The position numbers and the translations under genes were made by a program. The notes beneath the pieces are model-generated. The model did not search any database. It was not told the DNA's origin and saw nothing but the letters and a program-made list of their open reading frames with translations. DNA of 64,000 nucleotides, taken from Vitreoscilla filiformis. GTDB taxonomy: Bacteria; Pseudomonadota; Gammaproteobacteria; Burkholderiales; Burkholderiaceae_C. The number at the start of each line of letters is the position of its first letter. Position 1 is the stretch's first letter. The stretch covers positions 1,364,001 to 1,428,000 of the forward strand of contig NZ_CP022423.1 in NCBI RefSeq assembly GCF_002222655.1, given 5' to 3'. Positions 26,036 through 64,000 of this stretch are shown here, in pieces.

Positions 26036-26254
26036 TTACCCGATTCTCTCGATATCGAACGCTCGTGGCCCTTTTTGTTCCTCACGCAATATAAAACTTA
26101 CCTGCGCCCCATCGAGCAAAATCTCTTCACCACTTGCGTCTGAACGGTAGAAAAAAACATCTTTTCCTTTAGATCGGCGGATGAAGCCGAAACCCTTCAG
26201 CGGATAGTAGCAACGAATGCTGCCAGAAACCCTGGAATCAGGCTCATTAGCCAT
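26036..26254 (-). CDS. Cold-shock-domain protein, retron accessory candidate
   Basis: The 72-residue protein is a single OB-fold cold-shock domain with both nucleic-acid binding patches: RNP1 as LKGFGFIRR and RNP2 as DVFFYRSD. It would bind single-stranded RNA or DNA. Its ATG overlaps the stop of the retron reverse transcriptase by eight bases, so the two are co-translated. That coupling suggests it works with the msDNA or the RT rather than in general cold shock. The sequence is shorter and more diverged than housekeeping CspA proteins. Confidence 0.8.
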   Translation of the reverse strand: MANEPDSRVSGSIRCYYPLKGFGFIRRSKGKDVFFYRSDASGEEILLDGAQVSFILREEQKGPRAFDIERIG

Positions 26255-27407
26255 AAATTGCCTCTTCCTTCTTCATTTTCGGGACGTGACTGCTAAGTCG
26301 AGCGTGAAGTTCCTTCGCTAGCTTTGGGTCAGTTCGGCTAACAATGTTCACTCTGTACCTGGCTTGATAAAAACGCTGAATATAAACCGCAGTCTCTCGG
26401 CTACGTAGCGGAGTTTTACAAACTGCCGCGACAATTTTCTGTGTTCGCTTTATTTCAATCGGCGAGTACAGTGGAGCGCACAAACGCAAAGCTACTCTGA
26501 AACGATTCGCTTCGCGATGCTTCAACTGAGACAGCATTGCCACACGACCAGAGGTTCGGTCATGTAGCTTGTGGAATTCGGGCGAAGTTCTTTCGACTTT
26601 TGATTCGCGGATGCAGCGACGAACTTCAGTGCGAATGCTAGCGCGCTCATCTCGCTTTACCCTCGGTTCACCGAGATTTAGCCAGAGTCCAGTCACCTCC
26701 ATCAATTCCGCAGAGTTGTTCTTTGAAGTGACCTTCGTTTTTCGCCGTTTCGGTTTGAAGCCCTTGCATTTCAGCATTTCCGCTACTTGCACAACCAAAG
26801 ATTCAATCCGTTTTTTCGCCAAGGGGTGCGGCGAAGAAATTGAAATATCATCGGTCAGGCGGCTGTAAATCAGCCCCTCATGGCGAAGATTGGATACAAG
26901 CCGATGTTCGATGTCGTGCAATGCAAGATTTGCAATGTAAGAACTTGTGCATGCGCCCTGAGGTACATGCCCGTCTTTAGTGCAAAGATCAGCCAACAAA
27001 CTAGCCACTTCTTGCGGGAAACGGAATAGGTTCTTGAAGATGTTCAGAACTGCTTCCCTTTTAATGGAGGGGAAGAAGTTCTCAACATCCATTGCAACAA
27101 TTACATGCGCCCTTGAGTGGCTCCGCGCATTCTGCACATAGTTGCGTTCCTTGATACTGCCGAATAGATAGCTCGGATACTGCACCCGCTCGAAAATATG
27201 TCGGTTGATTCGACGCTGGATGATCTTCAGTTCCTCAGTCGGCCCTGAGACAGTCCGGAAGCTGCCATCGCGCTTTGGGATGTCAAAGTCGCGGTAGTGG
27301 CCAGACACAGCGCCCGCGAGTGTGCGCAACTGTTGCGCGGAGAGCGAAAGCGAGCGTGCCAGTGCATCGACGGATGCAATCGGCGTTCCGTTAAAGATTG
27401 GTCGCAT
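26247..27407 (-). CDS. Retron reverse transcriptase
   Basis: The 386-residue protein has RT motifs in order: NARSH near residue 92 (the retron NAxxH signature), DVENFFPSI, PQGACTSSYIANL, the catalytic RLTDDISIS near residue 185, and VTG in EVTGLWLN near residue 235 (the retron region Y signature). The usual YADD box reads LTDD here; the two catalytic aspartates remain. It would copy the msd part of the upstream RNA into a branched RNA-DNA molecule. I prefer the ATG at 27407, which clears the 64-residue gene; the ATG at 27452 is possible. Low GC content relative to the genome suggests transfer. Confidence 0.9.
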   Translation of the reverse strand: MRPIFNGTPIASVDALARSLSLSAQQLRTLAGAVSGHYRDFDIPKRDGSFRTVSGPTEELKIIQRRINRHIFERVQYPSYLFGSIKERNYVQNARSHSRAHVIVAMDVENFFPSIKREAVLNIFKNLFRFPQEVASLLADLCTKDGHVPQGACTSSYIANLALHDIEHRLVSNLRHEGLIYSRLTDDISISSPHPLAKKRIESLVVQVAEMLKCKGFKPKRRKTKVTSKNNSAELMEVTGLWLNLGEPRVKRDERASIRTEVRRCIRESKVERTSPEFHKLHDRTSGRVAMLSQLKHREANRFRVALRLCAPLYSPIEIKRTQKIVAAVCKTPLRSRETAVYIQRFYQARYRVNIVSRTDPKLAKELHARLSSHVPKMKKEEAIYG

Positions 27408-27427
27408 GGAAAGAAACAGACACCTAC

Positions 27428-27622
27428 TTAACTGAACAGACCGATGATCCATTCAAGCAAAGATTTAGCGGAATCATATGCCCGGTAAAGGGTGTTGAAA
27501 TCCGCGAGATAGCGAAGAGCACCGCGTGCAATTCCACCCCATTCAAGCTGAGTGAAACCGCTCTTTTTAGCGATGTTGCCATCGCAATTACACGAACTTG
27601 ACTTATTGGGCTTGCGCTCCAT
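27428..27622 (-). CDS. Small 64-residue protein in the retron operon
   Basis: The ORF begins with ATG at 27622, preceded by AGGAG at an ideal distance within a conserved-looking TTTTAGGAGATTACT leader, and ends 20 bp before the RT start. The product has a basic, Ser-rich start with CNC, then an amphipathic helix-rich segment ending in the hydrophobic LLEWIIGLFS. I do not recognise a family. It lies between the ncRNA and the RT, the place where some retrons carry an effector or accessory gene. A toxin or membrane-active role is possible but unproven. Confidence 0.6.
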   Translation of the reverse strand: MERKPNKSSSCNCDGNIAKKSGFTQLEWGGIARGALRYLADFNTLYRAYDSAKSLLEWIIGLFS

Positions 27623-27688: not shown

Positions 27689-27900
27689 ATCGGTAGGAAA
27701 TAACAACTCTTCGTGCTCAGGTGTCTGCACATTCGCTCAACAACGGTGTACACCGGTTGCGGTCTTCTCGCCCCCTGGAGAGAGGGCATCGCCGCAGTCG
27801 GGGCATCCGGGTCTAGCCTCGCACGCACGACCGAGCCTCTTGCGAGGCCAAGTAATGACAGGTAAGGCGCCTTTTTCAAGGCATAGACTTTCCTACCCAA
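27689..27900 (-). ncRNA. Retron msr-msd non-coding RNA
   Basis: On the minus strand GGTAGGAAA (27897 to 27889) and TTTCCTACC (27700 to 27692) are perfectly complementary and lie about 190 nt apart, as the a1 and a2 ends of retron RNAs do. After a1 follow two tight msr-type hairpins: GCCTT-GAAA-AAGGC (27882 to 27869) and GCCTC-GCAA-GAGGC (27848 to 27835). The remainder folds as a long msd arm closed by TCGTGC (27830 to 27825) with GCACGA (27716 to 27711). The branching guanosine is probably the G right after a1 (27888). Position, size and order relative to the RT fit a retron. Confidence 0.82.
27775..27811. repeat. 37-bp segment of the msd shared with ppk2
   Basis: These 37 bases inside the msd arm are identical, base for base, to 41018-41054 in the interrupted ppk2 gene, in the same plus-strand orientation. 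Identity stops at both ends (C versus G on the left, T versus G on the right). The plus-strand sequence corresponds to the DNA strand that the RT would make from the msd RNA. Confidence 0.95.
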
Positions 27901-27976: not shown

Positions 27977-28572
27977 ATGTGGCTGATGCTGCATCTGCGC
28001 GGGTTTGCGCAGGCCTGCCCGGAAATCACGCTCAATCTTTCAGCTGCACACGCGCCCAGCGACTTTGCGCTGGGCCAAGCCGACATCGACATCTGTTACG
28101 GCGTGCCGCACTGGCCCGACTTGGTGAAGGAGCCTTTATTCGAGGAGCACATCGTGCCGCTGGCCAGCCCCGCGTTCATCTGCGAGCATGGTCTCAAAAA
28201 ACCTGAGCAGTTGTTGGAGCTGCCGCTCATCCAGAGCAATGTGAGCGTGGTGCAGTGGTCGGACTGGTTTGCCGCCTACACCTCACAGCGGGCGCCCGAC
28301 CACTTTGCTGTGCGATTCGATCGGGCGCAGATGTCGCTGGATGCGGCCACACAAGGGCTGGGCGTGGCCTTGGAAAGCGCCACCATTGCCGGAGGCCACA
28401 TCGCCTCGCGCCAGCTCAAACCGGTGTTTGGGCTGGACAAAGCCATCAAGGTGAAGGCCCATTTCGCGGTTTACCCCCTCGCCATGCCAAGCGGCCTGCG
28501 GTGGAAGCTTTTTTGGCTTGGTTGCATGGCGAGGCCGCTCAGCGCGCCGCGCCCACCACCCGGATCGCGTAG
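27977..28572 (+). pseudogene. LysR-type regulator, 5'-truncated and frameshifted
   Basis: Only the effector-binding half of a LysR regulator is left: MWLMLHLRGFAQACPEITLNLS, ADIDICYGVPHWPDLVKEPLFEEHIVPLASPAF and LDAATQGLGVALES. The helix-turn-helix and linker that should come first are missing, and the break coincides with the right edge of the retron island. Near 28495 the frame shifts by one base; the proper C-terminus AVEAFLAWLHGEAAQRAA continues in another frame to 28572. The 3' end overlaps the end of the convergent TRAP gene. It is likely non-functional. Confidence 0.85.
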
Positions 28573-29519
28573 GCGTTGATCGGCCCGAACATCCACTTGC
28601 CGGCCACGCCGACGGTGGCTTTCTGGAACAAAGTTTTGTCCACCGTGCTGACCTGCATGCCTCGCGCTTTGAGGTCTTGCAGGTGTTGCGCTTCGGTTTC
28701 CTGGAAGCGGCGGCGCTGGAAGGCGGTGGCTTCGGTGGCCGCTTCCTGGACGGCCCGGCGATCCGCTTCGGGCAGGCGCTCCCAGGCGGTGCGCCGGATG
28801 ATCAGCGGGCTCATCTGGAACTGGTGGCCGGTCAAACTCAGGTACTTCTGCACTTCGTAGAACTTGCTGGCGTGGATGTTGGCGATGGGGTTTTCCTGCC
28901 CATCCACCTTGCCTTGTTTCAGGGCGGCGTACAGGTCGGCGAAGCGCATTTGTCGCGGTTCGGCGCCGAGGGCTTGCATCACGTCGGTGAGCACGCCATC
29001 GGGGGGCACGCGCATGCGCAAATCGCCCAGATCACTGGGTTTGATGATGGGGTGTTTGTTGTTGGTCATGTGCCGGATGCCGTTGTCCCAGTAGCCCAGC
29101 ACGACAAACCCTTGTGCAGCACTTTTCTCGGCCAGCTCTTTACCCAGCGGGCCGTCCAGCAGTTTGAAAGCCCGGGCCGAACTGCTGAACAGAAACGGCA
29201 GGCCATACGCTGCATACTCCGGCACCAGCGCCGCGATGGGCCCCTGGGAGTTGACCGACATGTCCAACGTGCCGGCCCGCAAGGCGGCCAGCATGGCCAC
29301 ATCGTCCCCCAACTGGGCGGAGTGCGCCACTTGCACCTCGATGCGCCCTTGGGTTTTGACCTTGACCGCCTCGGCAAATTTGACGGCAGCCTCATGGCGC
29401 GGGTTGCTCGGTGCGGCGCCGTGGCCCAGTGTGAGTTTGAGGGGTTGGGCCAGGGCGGAGTGGCAGGCTTGCAGTCCCAGCCACAGCCCGAGCGCCAACT
29501 TGAGCAGTGCGGTGCGCAT
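28539..29519 (-). CDS. TRAP transporter substrate-binding protein (DctP family)
   Basis: The 326-residue protein has a signal peptide ending ALAQ and the DctP fold: LKLTLGHGAAPSNPRHEAAVKFAE, GYWDNGIRHMTNN, PSDLGDLRMRV and the FADLYAALKQGKVDGQENP signature with the Arg/Glu ligand region. It would capture an organic acid in the periplasm. No membrane subunits (DctQ/DctM) are nearby, so its partners are elsewhere. The ATG at 29519 is used since it begins the signal peptide. Confidence 0.9.
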   Translation of the reverse strand: MRTALLKLALGLWLGLQACHSALAQPLKLTLGHGAAPSNPRHEAAVKFAEAVKVKTQGRIEVQVAHSAQLGDDVAMLAALRAGTLDMSVNSQGPIAALVPEYAAYGLPFLFSSSARAFKLLDGPLGKELAEKSAAQGFVVLGYWDNGIRHMTNNKHPIIKPSDLGDLRMRVPPDGVLTDVMQALGAEPRQMRFADLYAALKQGKVDGQENPIANIHASKFYEVQKYLSLTGHQFQMSPLIIRRTAWERLPEADRRAVQEAATEATAFQRRRFQETEAQHLQDLKARGMQVSTVDKTLFQKATVGVAGKWMFGPINAYAIRVVGAAR

Positions 29520-40109: not shown

Positions 40110-41373
40110 ATGTCGCAAGAATCTTCCCCTGAGCTGTCCTCCAAGTCCTCGTCCCGGGCGTCGTCGTCGCGCTCTTCCAGTCCTCGGGCCGATGCGCCCG
40201 TGCGCAAGAAGGCCCGCAGCAAAGCGCCGCCAGCACCGCCGGTCGCCGCCAGTGTGACCCCCGAAGAAAGCAGCGTGACCGCCGCCATCGAAGGTGCGCG
40301 TGCGGTGCAAGTCGAAGTGGCCCGCGAGCTGCTGGCCAGCCAGCAGCCCGACCGGCTGACCCAGTTCAAAACGCTGCTGGCGGGCGCCTCGCCCGACGAT
40401 GTGCGTGCGCTGCGCCGGGCGTTGCAACAAGTGGAACCCTCGCGCCCCGTGGGGACGGTGGATCCAGACATGGAGCTGTCCAGCCGCTGGCGTGATGGGG
40501 CGTACCCCTACAAGAACCGCCTGTCGCGCAAGAACTACGAGCAGCAGAAGTACCGCCTGCAAGTTGAGCTGCTCAAGCTGCAAGCGTGGGTGAAAGAGAC
40601 CGGAGCGCGTGTCGTGATCCTGTTTGAAGGCCGGGACGCGGCTGGCAAGGGCGGCACGATCAAGCGTTTCATGGAACACATGAACCCACGCGGCGCACGG
40701 GTGGTGGCCTTGGAAAAGCCCAGCGAAGTCGAACGCGGCCAGTGGTATTTCCAGCGCTACATCTCGCATCTGCCGACGCGTGGGGAGATCGTGCTGTTCG
40801 ACCGCAGTTGGTACAACCGTTCGGGCGTCGAGCGCGTCATGGGCTTTTGCTCGCAGACCGAGTACGACGAGTTTTTGCGCCACGCGCCTGAGTTTGAGCG
40901 CCAATTGGTGCGCTCGGGCATCCACCTGTTCAAATTTTGGTTCTCGGTCAGCCGGGACGAGCAGCGCCGGCGCTTCAAAGAGCGCCAACTGCACCCGCTC
41001 AAACAGTGGAAACTCAGCTGGAGAGAGGGCATCGCCGCAGTCGGGGCATCCGGGGCGCCAACTGCACCCGCTCAAACAGTGGAAACTCAGCCCCATCGAC
41101 ATGGCCAGCCTCGACAAGTGGGATGACTACACCCGCGCCAAAGAAGCCATGTTCCTCCATACCGACACGTCCGATGCGCCCTGGACGATCATCAAGTCGG
41201 ACTGTAAGAAGCGTGCGCGCCTCAATGCCATGCGCTACGTGCTGCACCGCATGCCTTATGCCAAGAAGGGGCAGTCCACCATTGGGCCGGTGGATCCGCT
41301 GATCGTGGGGCGGCCATCGTTGGTGTCGAGCATGGTGGACGACCCCTTGGTGTCGGTGTCAGATGCGGGATAA
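40110..41373 (+). pseudogene. ppk2: Polyphosphate kinase 2, interrupted by a 73-bp insertion
   Basis: The gene codes a PPK2 that uses polyphosphate to phosphorylate nucleoside diphosphates, or the reverse. A Ser/Ala-rich tail precedes the domain; Walker A is EGRDAAGKGG and Walker B/lid is LFDRSWYNRSGVERVMGF. After RFKERQLHPLKQWKLS the frame runs into unrelated sequence and stops at 41126. The true C-terminus (PIDMASLDKWDDYTRAKEAM to the stop at 41371-41373) continues in another frame. Removing exactly 73 bases would restore an intact enzyme. The truncated form lacks roughly 95 residues, likely abolishing activity. Confidence 0.92.
40982..41090 (+). repeat. 36-bp direct repeats flanking a 37-bp insert in ppk2
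   Basis: Positions 40982-41017 and 41055-41090 are identical over 36 bases and both code the normal ppk2 sequence RQLHPLKQWKLS. Between them lie 37 foreign bases (41018-41054), which are the same as 27775-27811 in the retron msd. The repeat period is 73 bases, not a multiple of three, hence the frameshift. Confidence 0.97.
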
Positions 41374-48455: not shown

Positions 48456-48466
48456 CGCGCCCTCTT

Positions 48467-48548
48467 TCCGAGGAGCGCTGCGAGAGGACACGGTGGCCGG
48501 GCCGCCACCTCCCAGGCTCGGAGAGCCTTGTATCCAACCGCGCTCACC
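48467..48548 (+). promoter_or_regulatory. S-adenosylhomocysteine (SAH) riboswitch
   Basis: The leader holds the SAH-riboswitch core: CCGAGGAGCGCTGCGA at its 5' end, CCAGGCTCGG in the middle and ACCGCGCTCACC at the 3' end. CCGAG pairs with CTCGG (P1/P2 region) and GAGCGC pairs with GCGCTC to make the pseudoknot. The class controls ahcY and related genes, turning them on when SAH accumulates. Here it lies about 130 bases ahead of ahcY, the expected gene. The hypervariable arm is GGTGGCC..GGCCGCC-like. Confidence 0.92.
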
Positions 48549-48675
48549 CTGCCTCTCTCCCAGCGGCACGGTACGTCCCAGGCGCGGCGCGGCAACCTTC
48601 TGGGGTTCTGCGTGACGCCCTGTCACGGGTGCCGAGGGGGTGGCGGCGGGTTCTCTGGCCGAAGCGGAGCAACGA

Positions 48676-59450: not shown

Positions 59451-61604
59451 TCACTGCACGTTCAGGCTCTTGATCCACACCGACCCACTCAACGGGCGCA
59501 GCCGCACCACACTCAGGCCCGCCGGCAGCGGCGCATTCACGGCAGTACTGACCACGGGCGGGCCGTTGCAGATGCCCCCACAACTGCCCGTCAAACTCCA
59601 CACCCCCGCACGCTGGCCGTTGATGAGCAGCTCCACTTGGGTGTCCGCTTCCGGGTAGGTGGTGAGGGTGAATTGGAAGCGCCCCGCTTGCGCCGCTCGC
59701 ACCGGAATCAGCGCCGAACTGGAAAACGCCGCGCCACGCGCCCCCGTCCCGGTGACGAACCGCAGCGCTTGCGCGTCGTAGCGCCACGAGTCACCGCCAT
59801 CGAGTTCGATGCCGGCGCGGCGCCCAGCAGGCAACCAGATGCTGGCAGGCACCAGCGTGCCCAGCGTCTCAGCGGTTTTGGGTTGCTGGCGGATCGCATC
59901 GATTGCTTGGAGTTTGACGGTGCGCGTGTCCGACACCGGGCTGGGGCGGGCGCTGTCCACAAACTCCCACGGGGGCGCGCCGTTGTAAACGTAGTAGGCC
60001 AGCAACTGGCCGCCATGGGCTTGGTAAATCTGATGCGCCGCTTGCATGCGGGCTTTCATGCGCGGATCGGCGTTGTAGGTGCTGACCAGTTGCGGGCTGC
60101 CAGCGGCCGTGCCAGAGGTGGCGTGTCCGCCCGGCCCCGGCCCGCCTTCGTAGGCCACAGACACCAGCCCGAAGCCACGGGCCCACACCGCATCGGTGGC
60201 GGTGTTGGTGGCAAATTCAGCGTTCGGCAGGCTGGCAAAGTAGGCTGCCATGGTTTTTTCTGAGGTGTCCGTCGGGGGCGTTTGGGCGTCGTAGTACGCC
60301 GCGCCGCCGGCGCCCCACCACAGTTCATGGATGCGCCGCGCCACCGGATTCAGCGGTGCCGTGCGGCGCTCTTGACCATAAAACCCTTCCGCCCACTTCA
60401 GACCCTCGCTCAGATACACGTTGGCATTGCCGACTTGGCTGGCCAAAATGGGCCGCACCGTGGTCATCATCGCGGCGTCGCCGAACACCGAGCGGAACGT
60501 TTGGCTGAGGGTGGCCGAGCGGTAGGCGATCCAGCGTCGCAGCGCCAGGTACTGATCTCCCGCCGTGGCGCCATCGTAGGCGATGGGGTGGGTCGGGTTG
60601 GCCTTGTGGGTGTTGGCCAACCCCAGCGCCCAGCCGAAGCCCAGGAATCCCGGCCCGGCATTCCACAGTTCGTTGCCGTATTCCACGTACACCTTCAGCC
60701 CCGGTTTGAGCGGCGGATAAACCGGCTTGGCTTGCGCTTGGGTGTAGGGATTCACCCCGTCCGAGCCGTAGCGCACCAACAGGGCGAGTTTGCGGATGTA
60801 ATCGTCGTCCGCCTTGACGGGCAGGTTCAGCCAGACATCGTTGCCCGTTTCGTTGGCCAGGGCGATCAGCAATTCCCATGGTTGGCCCTTGCTGCGCACA
60901 AACCCCTGCCAGCCCATGGGCGTGCGCTCGCTCCACTGCACGCTGGGGTTGTTGTTGGCGGACACGAAATCCATGCCCCGGATGAGGTGGAACTTCTTCA
61001 TCGCCTCGATGTATTCCTTGGTGAAATGCACCGAGCCGTGGGTCGGATAACCGGGGCGCCACAGGTGCAAATCGGTCAAGCCATCGGCGCCGGTGGAGGC
61101 CCGGGTGCGGCGGGTTTGGCTGAACGCCAACCAGGCGTTGCCCCGGGTGTTGGCGGGCAGCACCACATCGGCGGTGGTGGTGTTGCTGGCGGCGTCGTAA
61201 CGTTGGTTCTGGATGGAGGGCGGGGCGCTGCTGCCGCCGTCCGCGCTGGCCGACACGCTCACCTGCGCTTGGCCTTTGAAGCTGAGTTTGTAGGTGCCCG
61301 CCGCCACCCGCAGCGAGCTGAAGATCATGAGGAAATCGCGGGTGGGGGCGCCCAGGGCATCGGCGCCGACGTCTTCACCCCAATCGTGGCTGCGAAACTG
61401 GCTGTGGCGCACCAAGTCGGCCATGGCGTGGCTGCCATCAAAGTAGCTCAGTTGGTTGATGCCGATGCCCAGATAGGGCGTCGGGCTGTTCACATCGACG
61501 CTGGCCCCTCGGGCTGCACCACTCACCAGCACGGACAGGCCGCACACCCAAGCCGCCAGCGGCGGCACCCAACGGGAACAGAACACCATTCGAAAACTCC
61601 TCAA
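59451..61604 (-). CDS. Secreted carbohydrate-active-like protein (GH-A-like NE motif)
   Basis: The 717-residue protein has a signal peptide (to about residue 33) and a large N-terminal domain with VYVEYGNELWN near residue 295, similar to the Asn-Glu acid/base motif of clan GH-A hydrolases, followed by AYEGGPGPGG, which may hold the second acid. A C-terminal beta domain with CGGIC and YPEADTQVELLINGQ is likely carbohydrate-binding. The substrate is not clear; cellulose-related or other glycans are possible. A paralog lies on the other side of argG (63035-64000), same strand. Confidence 0.7.
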   Translation of the reverse strand: MRSFRMVFCSRWVPPLAAWVCGLSVLVSGAARGASVDVNSPTPYLGIGINQLSYFDGSHAMADLVRHSQFRSHDWGEDVGADALGAPTRDFLMIFSSLRVAAGTYKLSFKGQAQVSVSASADGGSSAPPSIQNQRYDAASNTTTADVVLPANTRGNAWLAFSQTRRTRASTGADGLTDLHLWRPGYPTHGSVHFTKEYIEAMKKFHLIRGMDFVSANNNPSVQWSERTPMGWQGFVRSKGQPWELLIALANETGNDVWLNLPVKADDDYIRKLALLVRYGSDGVNPYTQAQAKPVYPPLKPGLKVYVEYGNELWNAGPGFLGFGWALGLANTHKANPTHPIAYDGATAGDQYLALRRWIAYRSATLSQTFRSVFGDAAMMTTVRPILASQVGNANVYLSEGLKWAEGFYGQERRTAPLNPVARRIHELWWGAGGAAYYDAQTPPTDTSEKTMAAYFASLPNAEFATNTATDAVWARGFGLVSVAYEGGPGPGGHATSGTAAGSPQLVSTYNADPRMKARMQAAHQIYQAHGGQLLAYYVYNGAPPWEFVDSARPSPVSDTRTVKLQAIDAIRQQPKTAETLGTLVPASIWLPAGRRAGIELDGGDSWRYDAQALRFVTGTGARGAAFSSSALIPVRAAQAGRFQFTLTTYPEADTQVELLINGQRAGVWSLTGSCGGICNGPPVVSTAVNAPLPAGLSVVRLRPLSGSVWIKSLNVQ

Positions 61605-63034: not shown

Positions 63035-64000
63035 TCAACGCACGATCAAGCGCCGAATCCAGATGTCGTTGTTCACCGGGCGCACACGCACCACGCTGAG
63101 CCCGGCGGGCAGGGCGGCCTTGATGACGGGGCTGGTGGCATAAGCATTGTCGGCACAAATCCCGCCGCAGGTGCCGGGGATGTTGAAGGTGCCAGCCAGC
63201 TCACCGTTGATCATCAGTTCCACTTGGGTGTCGGCTTCCGGGTACATGGCCAAGCTGAAACGGTAAGTGCCGGCTTGTTCGGCGCGGATCGGAATCAGCG
63301 CCATGCCGGAAAACGCCTTGCCACCCGTGCCCGTGGTGACAGGCAACCGGATGGCCTGGCCGTTGTAACGCCAGTTGGCCGCCCCGTCGAACTGCACGCC
63401 CACCGAACCGCCGTTCGGAAACCACACCGTGCCTGGCACCGCTGTGCCCAAAGTGGGCGCGGCCTTGGGGGCCATGCGAATGGTGTCGATGGTGCGCAGT
63501 TTTACCGTGGAGGTGTCGGACACCACGCCGGGGTTCAGGTCGTTGACAAAATCCCAAGGCGGGGAGCCGCTGTAAACGTAGTAATTCAACAGCTCGCCGC
63601 CGTTGGCGGTGTAAATCTGGTGGGCGGCTTTCATGCGGGCCCACATGCGCGAATCGGCGTTGTAGGTGGCAGCCAATTCAACGCTGCCCGTGGCCGAACC
63701 CGACGAGCTGCCCCCCGGCCCCGGCCCGCCTTCATAGGCCACGGATTTCAGCCCATACCCCCGCGACCAAGTGGCATCAATGGCGGTATTGCTGGCAAAT
63801 TCGGCACTGGGCAAACCGGCAAAATAGGCGCGCATGGTGGCGGCGCTGGTGTCGGTGGGGGCGGTGGTGGAATCGTAGTAAGCTGCGCCTCCCGCGCCCC
63901 ACCACAGTTGATTCACCTGGCGCGCAACGCTGTTGGCCGGGCTGGTGCGCACTTGACCATAAAAGCCTTCGGCCCATTTCAGCCCCTCACTCAAATACAC
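63035..64000 (-). CDS. Secreted carbohydrate-active-like protein, partial (paralog)
   Basis: This is the C-terminal 321 residues of a protein cut by the right window edge. It begins in YLSEGLKWAEGFYGQ and matches the 59451-61604 product along its length: LWWGAGGAAYYD, FAGLPSAEFASNTA, AYEGGPGPGG, YPEADTQVELMINGE, CGGIC and the end RPVNNDIWIRRLIVR. It is a tandem duplicate that has diverged. The N-terminal part and signal peptide lie beyond the window. Confidence 0.75.
   Translation of the reverse strand: MYLSEGLKWAEGFYGQVRTSPANSVARQVNQLWWGAGGAAYYDSTTAPTDTSAATMRAYFAGLPSAEFASNTAIDATWSRGYGLKSVAYEGGPGPGGSSSGSATGSVELAATYNADSRMWARMKAAHQIYTANGGELLNYYVYSGSPPWDFVNDLNPGVVSDTSTVKLRTIDTIRMAPKAAPTLGTAVPGTVWFPNGGSVGVQFDGAANWRYNGQAIRLPVTTGTGGKAFSGMALIPIRAEQAGTYRFSLAMYPEADTQVELMINGELAGTFNIPGTCGGICADNAYATSPVIKAALPAGLSVVRVRPVNNDIWIRRLIVR

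Follow-up and report, generated by a model that had tools for sequence, protein, structure and literature searches.

In CRISPR adaptation, Cas1-Cas2 links each end of a prespacer to one end of a repeat, on opposite strands, and fill-in then duplicates the repeat. Non-canonical integration of spacers by Cas1-Cas2 outside the array has been described by Nivala, Shipman and Church (2018), as cited in PMC11788318 and PMC9456107. In this study we describe an insertion in the polyphosphate kinase 2 gene (ppk2) of Vitreoscilla filiformis that resembles those events, as the citing papers sum them up, in lying in a non-array region of the genome, but its insert is retron sequence, the system would be of type I-C and the genome is not known as engineered. 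Nivala et al. reportedly pointed to putative natural events as well, in Yersinia pestis and Sulfolobus islandicus.

Retron RT-DNA has been used as a substrate of CRISPR adaptation in Retro-Cascorder (Bhattarai-Kline et al. 2022), where, according to a passage of PMC11394691, two retron ssDNAs hybridise into a duplex. Our case would share this substrate with it, whereas Retro-Cascorder uses engineered ncRNA barcodes that go into an array; the retron here is native and of type V, and the site lies outside any array. For type I-C itself, Cas4-Cas1-Cas2 of Bacillus halodurans is reported to process ssDNA that is offered along with a duplex, whether in cis or in trans (PMC6519985). Off-array integration and retron-fed spacers are each known, and we did not find their natural combination in the literature searched: among the titles and abstract openings covered, mostly of papers outside subscription journals, none describes natural retron-derived spacers or insertions, and the available passages of PMC12548924 include none on type V retrons.

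The retron studied here is itself the same as type V retrons in its reverse transcriptase (RT; RT_V is the best PADLOC match), its a1/a2-msr-msd RNA and a cold-shock domain (CSD) gene beside the RT. What is new is that part of its msd stands elsewhere in the chromosome. We propose that the insert in ppk2 probably came from the type I-C Cas1-Cas2(-Cas4) integrase acting off-array on retron-made DNA. The evidence base of this reading is one event in one genome.

Results

A spacer-like unit interrupts ppk2

The window, that is the whole stretch of 64,000 nucleotides that was analysed, contains the following features at ppk2:

40110..41126, + strand: ppk2 (polyphosphate kinase 2), frameshifted by a 73-bp addition (Pfam PPK2; intact relative P0001)
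40982..41017, + strand: left copy of the 36-bp ppk2 segment (target duplication; type I-C repeat length), exact match to 41055-41090
41018..41054, + strand: 37-bp spacer-like insert, matching the 3' part of the msd of the retron in 37/37 bases (27775-27811)
41055..41090, + strand: right copy of the 36-bp ppk2 segment, exact match to 40982-41017

An earlier note on this DNA had pointed out 37 bases common to ppk2 and the retron, bounded in ppk2 by perfect 36-bp copies of the normal gene sequence. Both observations were borne out: the insert and its counterpart in the retron are identical over all 37 bases, with 0 further matching bases beyond either end, and the direct copies on its two sides agree in 36 of 36 bases. 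A search of the whole genome, which the same note had suggested, found exactly two copies of the 37-mer, one in the retron and one in ppk2 and hence both in the window (3 or fewer mismatches allowed; 3,787,551 bases, or 3.79 Mb, in 3 contigs, with completeness given as 100). The C at 41018 also stands after the right copy of the 36-mer and so fits either side, and the 73-bp unit can therefore be parsed as 36+37 or 37+36 (duplication plus insert). The right-hand end of the insert is unambiguous (41054 = 27811). As a result of the 73-bp addition ppk2 is frameshifted and its ORF stops at 41126, with the original frame running on to 41373; the product has a Pfam PPK2 match (E 4.6e-78). The orientation of the insert, said earlier to equal that of the DNA made by the RT, carries no weight, since a double-stranded insert has both strands.

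A phage origin of the 37-mer was rejected, as the viral contigs held 0 exact matches to it. A transposon or IS insertion was rejected too: the insert measures 37 bp, is found in two genome copies only and is bounded by a 36-bp duplication.

Comparison with ppk2 in relatives, also suggested earlier, showed 20 other genomes to be without the insert. The empty-site junction aligns unbroken in 23 of 27 matching loci (30 loci given; 3 or fewer gap positions allowed), which represent these 20 distinct genomes, 11 of the same genus; the remaining four were the locus of the window itself, one locus with 4 gap positions and two that fail to span the junction. The more distant of the homologues, 69-84% identical, may be paralogues. 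The relative P0001 encodes an intact 396-aa PPK2 with 3 residue differences from the empty-site reading of the window. Given the unbroken site in the homologues and the intact P0001, the insertion looks recent rather than ancestral, and it would be recent also because there is no mismatch in the 37 or the 36 bases.

The probable source lies at predicted landmarks of a type V retron

The retron occupies the following positions in the window:

26036..26254, - strand: cold-shock domain protein, retron accessory gene (Pfam CSD E 1.6e-10)
26247..27452, - strand: type V retron reverse transcriptase, conserved start probably at 27407 (PADLOC RT_V E 2.9e-101)
27428..27622, - strand: 64-aa ORF standing between RT and ncRNA, without Pfam match (L021 and L081 have similar small ORFs in the same place)
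27692..27700, - strand: a2 arm of the a1/a2 stem (predicted structure)
27701..27810, - strand: retron msd, predicted msDNA template (msDNA would read from 27701 to 27810/27811 on the + strand; three-sequence alignment)
27775..27811, + strand: predicted last 37 nt of msDNA, putative source of the insert (from the apical loop in the msd hairpin up to the border of msr and msd)
27811..27888, - strand: retron msr, GTCTA...TAGAC closing stem (predicted structure)
27889..27897, - strand: a1 arm of the a1/a2 stem (fully paired, with two-sided changes in 3 of 9 pairs)

The RT belongs to clade V, with RT_IV as the next PADLOC match (E 3.2e-82). The CSD gene adjoins it, and type V retrons pair an RT with a cold-shock domain protein; an ncRNA with a1/a2, msr and msd is present as well. 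The 64-aa ORF may be a further component of the retron, and the first G of the msr is presumably the branching G. A first scan of contigs with the RT alone returned no relative; the alignment recovered 29 loci, and relatives of the RT are 74%, 68% and 46% identical. Directly upstream of the ncRNA stands a fragment of a LysR-type regulator (27977-28579), of which only the substrate-binding domain was found, and it may be that the retron arrived by interrupting this gene.

The pairs of the ncRNA were counted on three sequences, the window, Pelomonas sp. UHG3 (L081) and G007 (L021), the closest three of twelve, because the 12-sequence alignment is too divergent in the msd. The consensus has 56 pairs, 10 of them changed on both sides (9 by RNAalifold's own count) and 6 of these 10 in the two msd hairpin helices; pairing is kept in 94.0% of 168 cells. 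In shuffled alignments the mean number of pairs changed on both sides was 4.4, and 0 of 500 shuffles reached 10; likewise 0 of 500 reached the percentage paired or the covariation score, while 69 of 500 reached the number of further pair types, which is one of the five measures of covariation used. When the alignment was slid by 1-3 columns, only 0-3 pairs changed on both sides were found. Covariation among the three sequences hence supports the outer stem and the msd stems. The msr closing stem (GTCTA/TAGAC) is invariant in all three, so that the predicted msr/msd border, between 27811 and 27810, rests on complementarity and position and not on covariation.

Within the alignment of the ncRNA region the 37-mer takes up columns 110-146. 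One of its ends coincides with the final base of the msr closing stem and goes a single base beyond the msd. The other end lies in an apical loop, which spans 27775-27781 in the RNA consensus and 27773-27776 in the minimum-energy and centroid DNA folds. The insert thus corresponds to what is predicted to be the last stretch of msDNA, 37 nt that run from the apical loop to the border at its 3' end. The predicted msDNA hairpin is imperfect and weak, and its fold is no stabler than those of shuffled sequences (z 0.00; 94 of 200 shuffles fold at least as well), which means that the hairpin argument concerns position and not stability. According to PMC8989520, secondary structure does not determine where Eco1 msDNA ends, though for the retrons studied there most msDNA molecules end within 3 bases or fewer. 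The border predicted here therefore need not be the true end. In G007 and G425, which carry the two nearest retrons, no second copy of the msd region was found.

The unit has the geometry of the resident type I-C system

A type I-C locus was found at C1:2490311-2502595, with the gene order cas3-cas5c-cas8c-cas7c-cas4-cas1c-cas2, without stops and adjoining its array. For all seven genes a model scored over its NCBIfam cut-off (for Cas3, core and HD domain models), with 478.8 bits for Cas1c (cut-off 385), 59 bits for Cas2 (24.5) and 102.5 bits for Cas4 (65); genome-wide, Cas1 and Cas2 gave five matches each. All 54 repeats of the array are identical and each is 36 bp long. The 53 spacers measure 33 (11 spacers), 34 (14), 35 (14), 36 (8), 37 (4) and 38 bp (2). 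Spacers of 36 or 37 bp, 12 of the 53 here, make up 0 of 227 elsewhere among the 280 array spacers read: those of the 29-bp-repeat (type I-E-like) array have 32-33 bp (n=117), those of the 37-bp-repeat arrays 30-34 bp (n=60 and 19) and those of the 35-bp-repeat arrays beside an RT-Cas1 fusion 30-33 bp (n=31, none at 36 or 37 bp). The fusion has 679 aa with a YADD motif (L013:16956-18995) and its 35-bp-repeat arrays stand at C1:2206109-2211057. A retron RT and an RT-Cas1 thus occur in this genome together with a type I-C locus, 37-bp-repeat arrays and a 29-bp-repeat (type I-E-like) array.

Among the arrays read, in a survey that covers half of the genome so that a further array type is possible, the ppk2 unit (36+37 or 37+36) fits only the type I-C geometry. 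The duplication and insert in ppk2 therefore correspond to a single repeat-spacer unit of type I-C that stands outside an array. A duplication of 36 bp, which the earlier note had found too long for ordinary transposition, is explained because type I-C repeats have exactly this length, and the same joining and fill-in by which Cas1-Cas2 adds a repeat, if carried out off the array, would give exactly the duplication seen in ppk2. Considered as an integrase product, the locus combines a duplication as long as a resident CRISPR repeat (36 bp in both), an insert of 37 or 36 bp within the spacer range of the same system (33-38 bp), cas1 and cas2 genes without stops in the genome and an uninterrupted site in relatives (20 distinct genomes).

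The ppk2 36-mer and the type I-C repeat have CACCCGCT in common, and on the other strand they share GCGGGTG, shifted by one base from register. This likeness is not significant, since, of 6000 random genomic 36-mers, 9.8% score as high by global comparison, 28% by local comparison and 19% in register. There is no TTC PAM at the source in the retron, where the bases on the 5' side are CCC on one strand and AGA on the other; TTC is given as the type I-C PAM in PMC8406640 and may not be the PAM of this genome.

The 37-mer is absent from every array in the genome-wide search, and no array spacer from the retron was found. None of the 53 type I-C spacers matches its own genome over more than 24 nt outside its own array (1.804 Mb searched); 13 partial matches of 16-24 nt were seen at E 0.01 in the same 1.804 Mb. 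Uptake of chromosomal DNA by the type I-C system hence looks rare. In other arrays three spacers match the own genome: IE_10, from the 29-bp-repeat array, over 31 of 32 nt (L075:9947-9977), and, from the 37-bp-repeat arrays, III37_15 over 32 of 32 nt (L069:1380-1411) and III37_50 over 28 nt with one mismatch (L018:19166-19193). These might be cases of self-targeting or prophage targets.

A second candidate unit

We scanned 1.804 Mb (604 + 400 + 800 kb, 48% of the genome) for exact direct repeats of at least 20 bp with a period of 55-110 bp, widened to 45-110 for the final 0.8 Mb. Five were found outside arrays: the ppk2 unit, one further spacer-like unit and three others, namely a heptamer tandem (L065), three consecutive tRNA-Gly genes (L173) and a 22-bp repeat of period 96 (L180). 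The further unit is:

C1:10687-10773 (L061:10687-10773): second CRISPR-like off-array unit, 27-bp duplication and 33-bp insert

The 33-bp insert adds an in-frame stop to its gene, which has homologues without the insertion in 3 of 3 relatives compared; a 185-aa part of the broken gene gave no Pfam match. In E. coli, type I-E adaptation gives a 28-bp duplication and a 33-bp insert. The period here is 60, against 61-62 in the type I-E-like arrays, and the duplication is one base short of that expected. The likeness of the duplicated segment to the type I-E repeat is suggestive only, as 4.5% of 8000 random 27-mers do as well. For the 33-mer there is no other copy in the genome (3 or fewer mismatches allowed), no exact viral match to its inner 23 bases and no phage or plasmid site covering 80% of it. 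The second unit suggests that off-array integration happened in this genome more than once.

Discussion

Origin of the insert

Off-array integration by the type I-C integrase is very likely the best explanation of the unit in ppk2 and, if such integration took place, there is a good probability that msDNA was the source. In the process that we propose, the retron RT would make msDNA ending at the msr/msd border, and about 37 nt of it, running from the apical loop to its 3' end, would be captured as a prespacer. Its double-stranded form might be a cut hairpin, a DNA:RNA hybrid or a second-strand product. Cas1-Cas2 would then link the prespacer ends to opposite strands of ppk2 36 bp apart, and gap filling would copy the 36 bp on both sides, like the copying of the repeat in normal adaptation. 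The event would be recent, and ppk2 would have been broken by it.

It might also be that the type I-C integrase made the insertion and that the piece was a degradation fragment of the chromosomal retron gene and not msDNA. Cas1-Cas2 in general takes up chromosomal DNA fragments, other arrays of this genome hold own-genome spacers (IE_10, III37_15 and III37_50), and the predicted DNA hairpin of msDNA is weak, all of which would agree with such a fragment. However, it requires the coincidence that one place in 3.79 Mb was hit and that both ends came to lie at msd landmarks; a random self-derived 37-mer would fall inside the 230-bp ncRNA by chance in about 6 of 100,000 cases. The type I-C spacers show nothing beyond a partial match to the own genome (0/53, with 48% of the genome read), and the source has no PAM. 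Free DNA with a 3' end should moreover be a better integrase substrate than the chromosome. We therefore regard a chromosomal fragment as an unlikely source.

The earlier note had read the locus as msDNA captured during repair of a staggered break. Its retron-made source, with ends at the predicted border and in the predicted apical loop, agrees with our reading; repair does not seem to be the best mechanism. In a Cas-independent form, a 36-nt staggered break in ppk2 would have been filled in and closed with a patch of msDNA. Such fill-in would yield an exact duplication around a foreign patch, and msDNA is plausible as the patch, but two coincidences would be needed, namely that the stagger matched the type I-C repeat in length and that the patch fell within the spacer range of the same system, and a second unit of near type I-E geometry lies in the same genome. 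We consider repair of this kind to be quite improbable.

Still less probable, and indeed very doubtful, is capture and integration of the retron RNA itself by the RT-Cas1 fusion of another CRISPR system. Genes for the 679-aa RT-Cas1 with its YADD motif and for Cas2 are present, and the RT-Cas1 of Marinomonas mediterranea integrates RNA-derived spacers according to PMC11014452. Type III RT-Cas1 systems, which acquire spacers from RNA, would be like our case in that reverse transcription feeds adaptation. The geometry of the RT-Cas1 arrays in this genome is unlike the 36+37 of the ppk2 unit, however, with 35-bp repeats, spacers of 30-33 bp and 0 of 31 at 36 or 37 bp. That a dispersed repeat or an assembly chimera, the other alternatives of the earlier note, or mere chance made the locus is hardly credible, since the 37-mer has two copies genome-wide, which refutes a dispersed repeat, the assembly has 3 contigs with exact junctions and an exact duplication, 37 identical bases are far beyond chance and the site is unbroken in homologues of 20 genomes.

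Integration of retron-made DNA by the type I-C system remains the reading that we prefer. In its wider form, we are inclined to think that retrons and CRISPR adaptation come together in nature, with msDNA of a type V retron as a natural substrate of type I-C Cas1-Cas2(-Cas4), which can write spacer-like units from it into the chromosome. Retron-fed CRISPR recording is known only as an engineered tool in the passages of PMC11394691 that treat it. If our reading is true, msDNA enters the adaptation pathway without engineering, as shown by one 73-bp scar. Two defence systems would have a common DNA intermediate, at a possible cost of gene disruption, and the sensor molecule of an abortive-infection system could turn into a heritable mark or a mutation. 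Whether retron msDNA is sampled by CRISPR arrays in the course of an infection, with the retrons active, thereby becomes a testable question.

Other features of the window

Elsewhere in the window an SAH riboswitch was found at 48464-48552 on the + strand (60.3 bits). Diverged direct repeats at 60127-60344 and 63711-63928, 3584 bp apart and 74-76% identical, are possibly duplicated genes.
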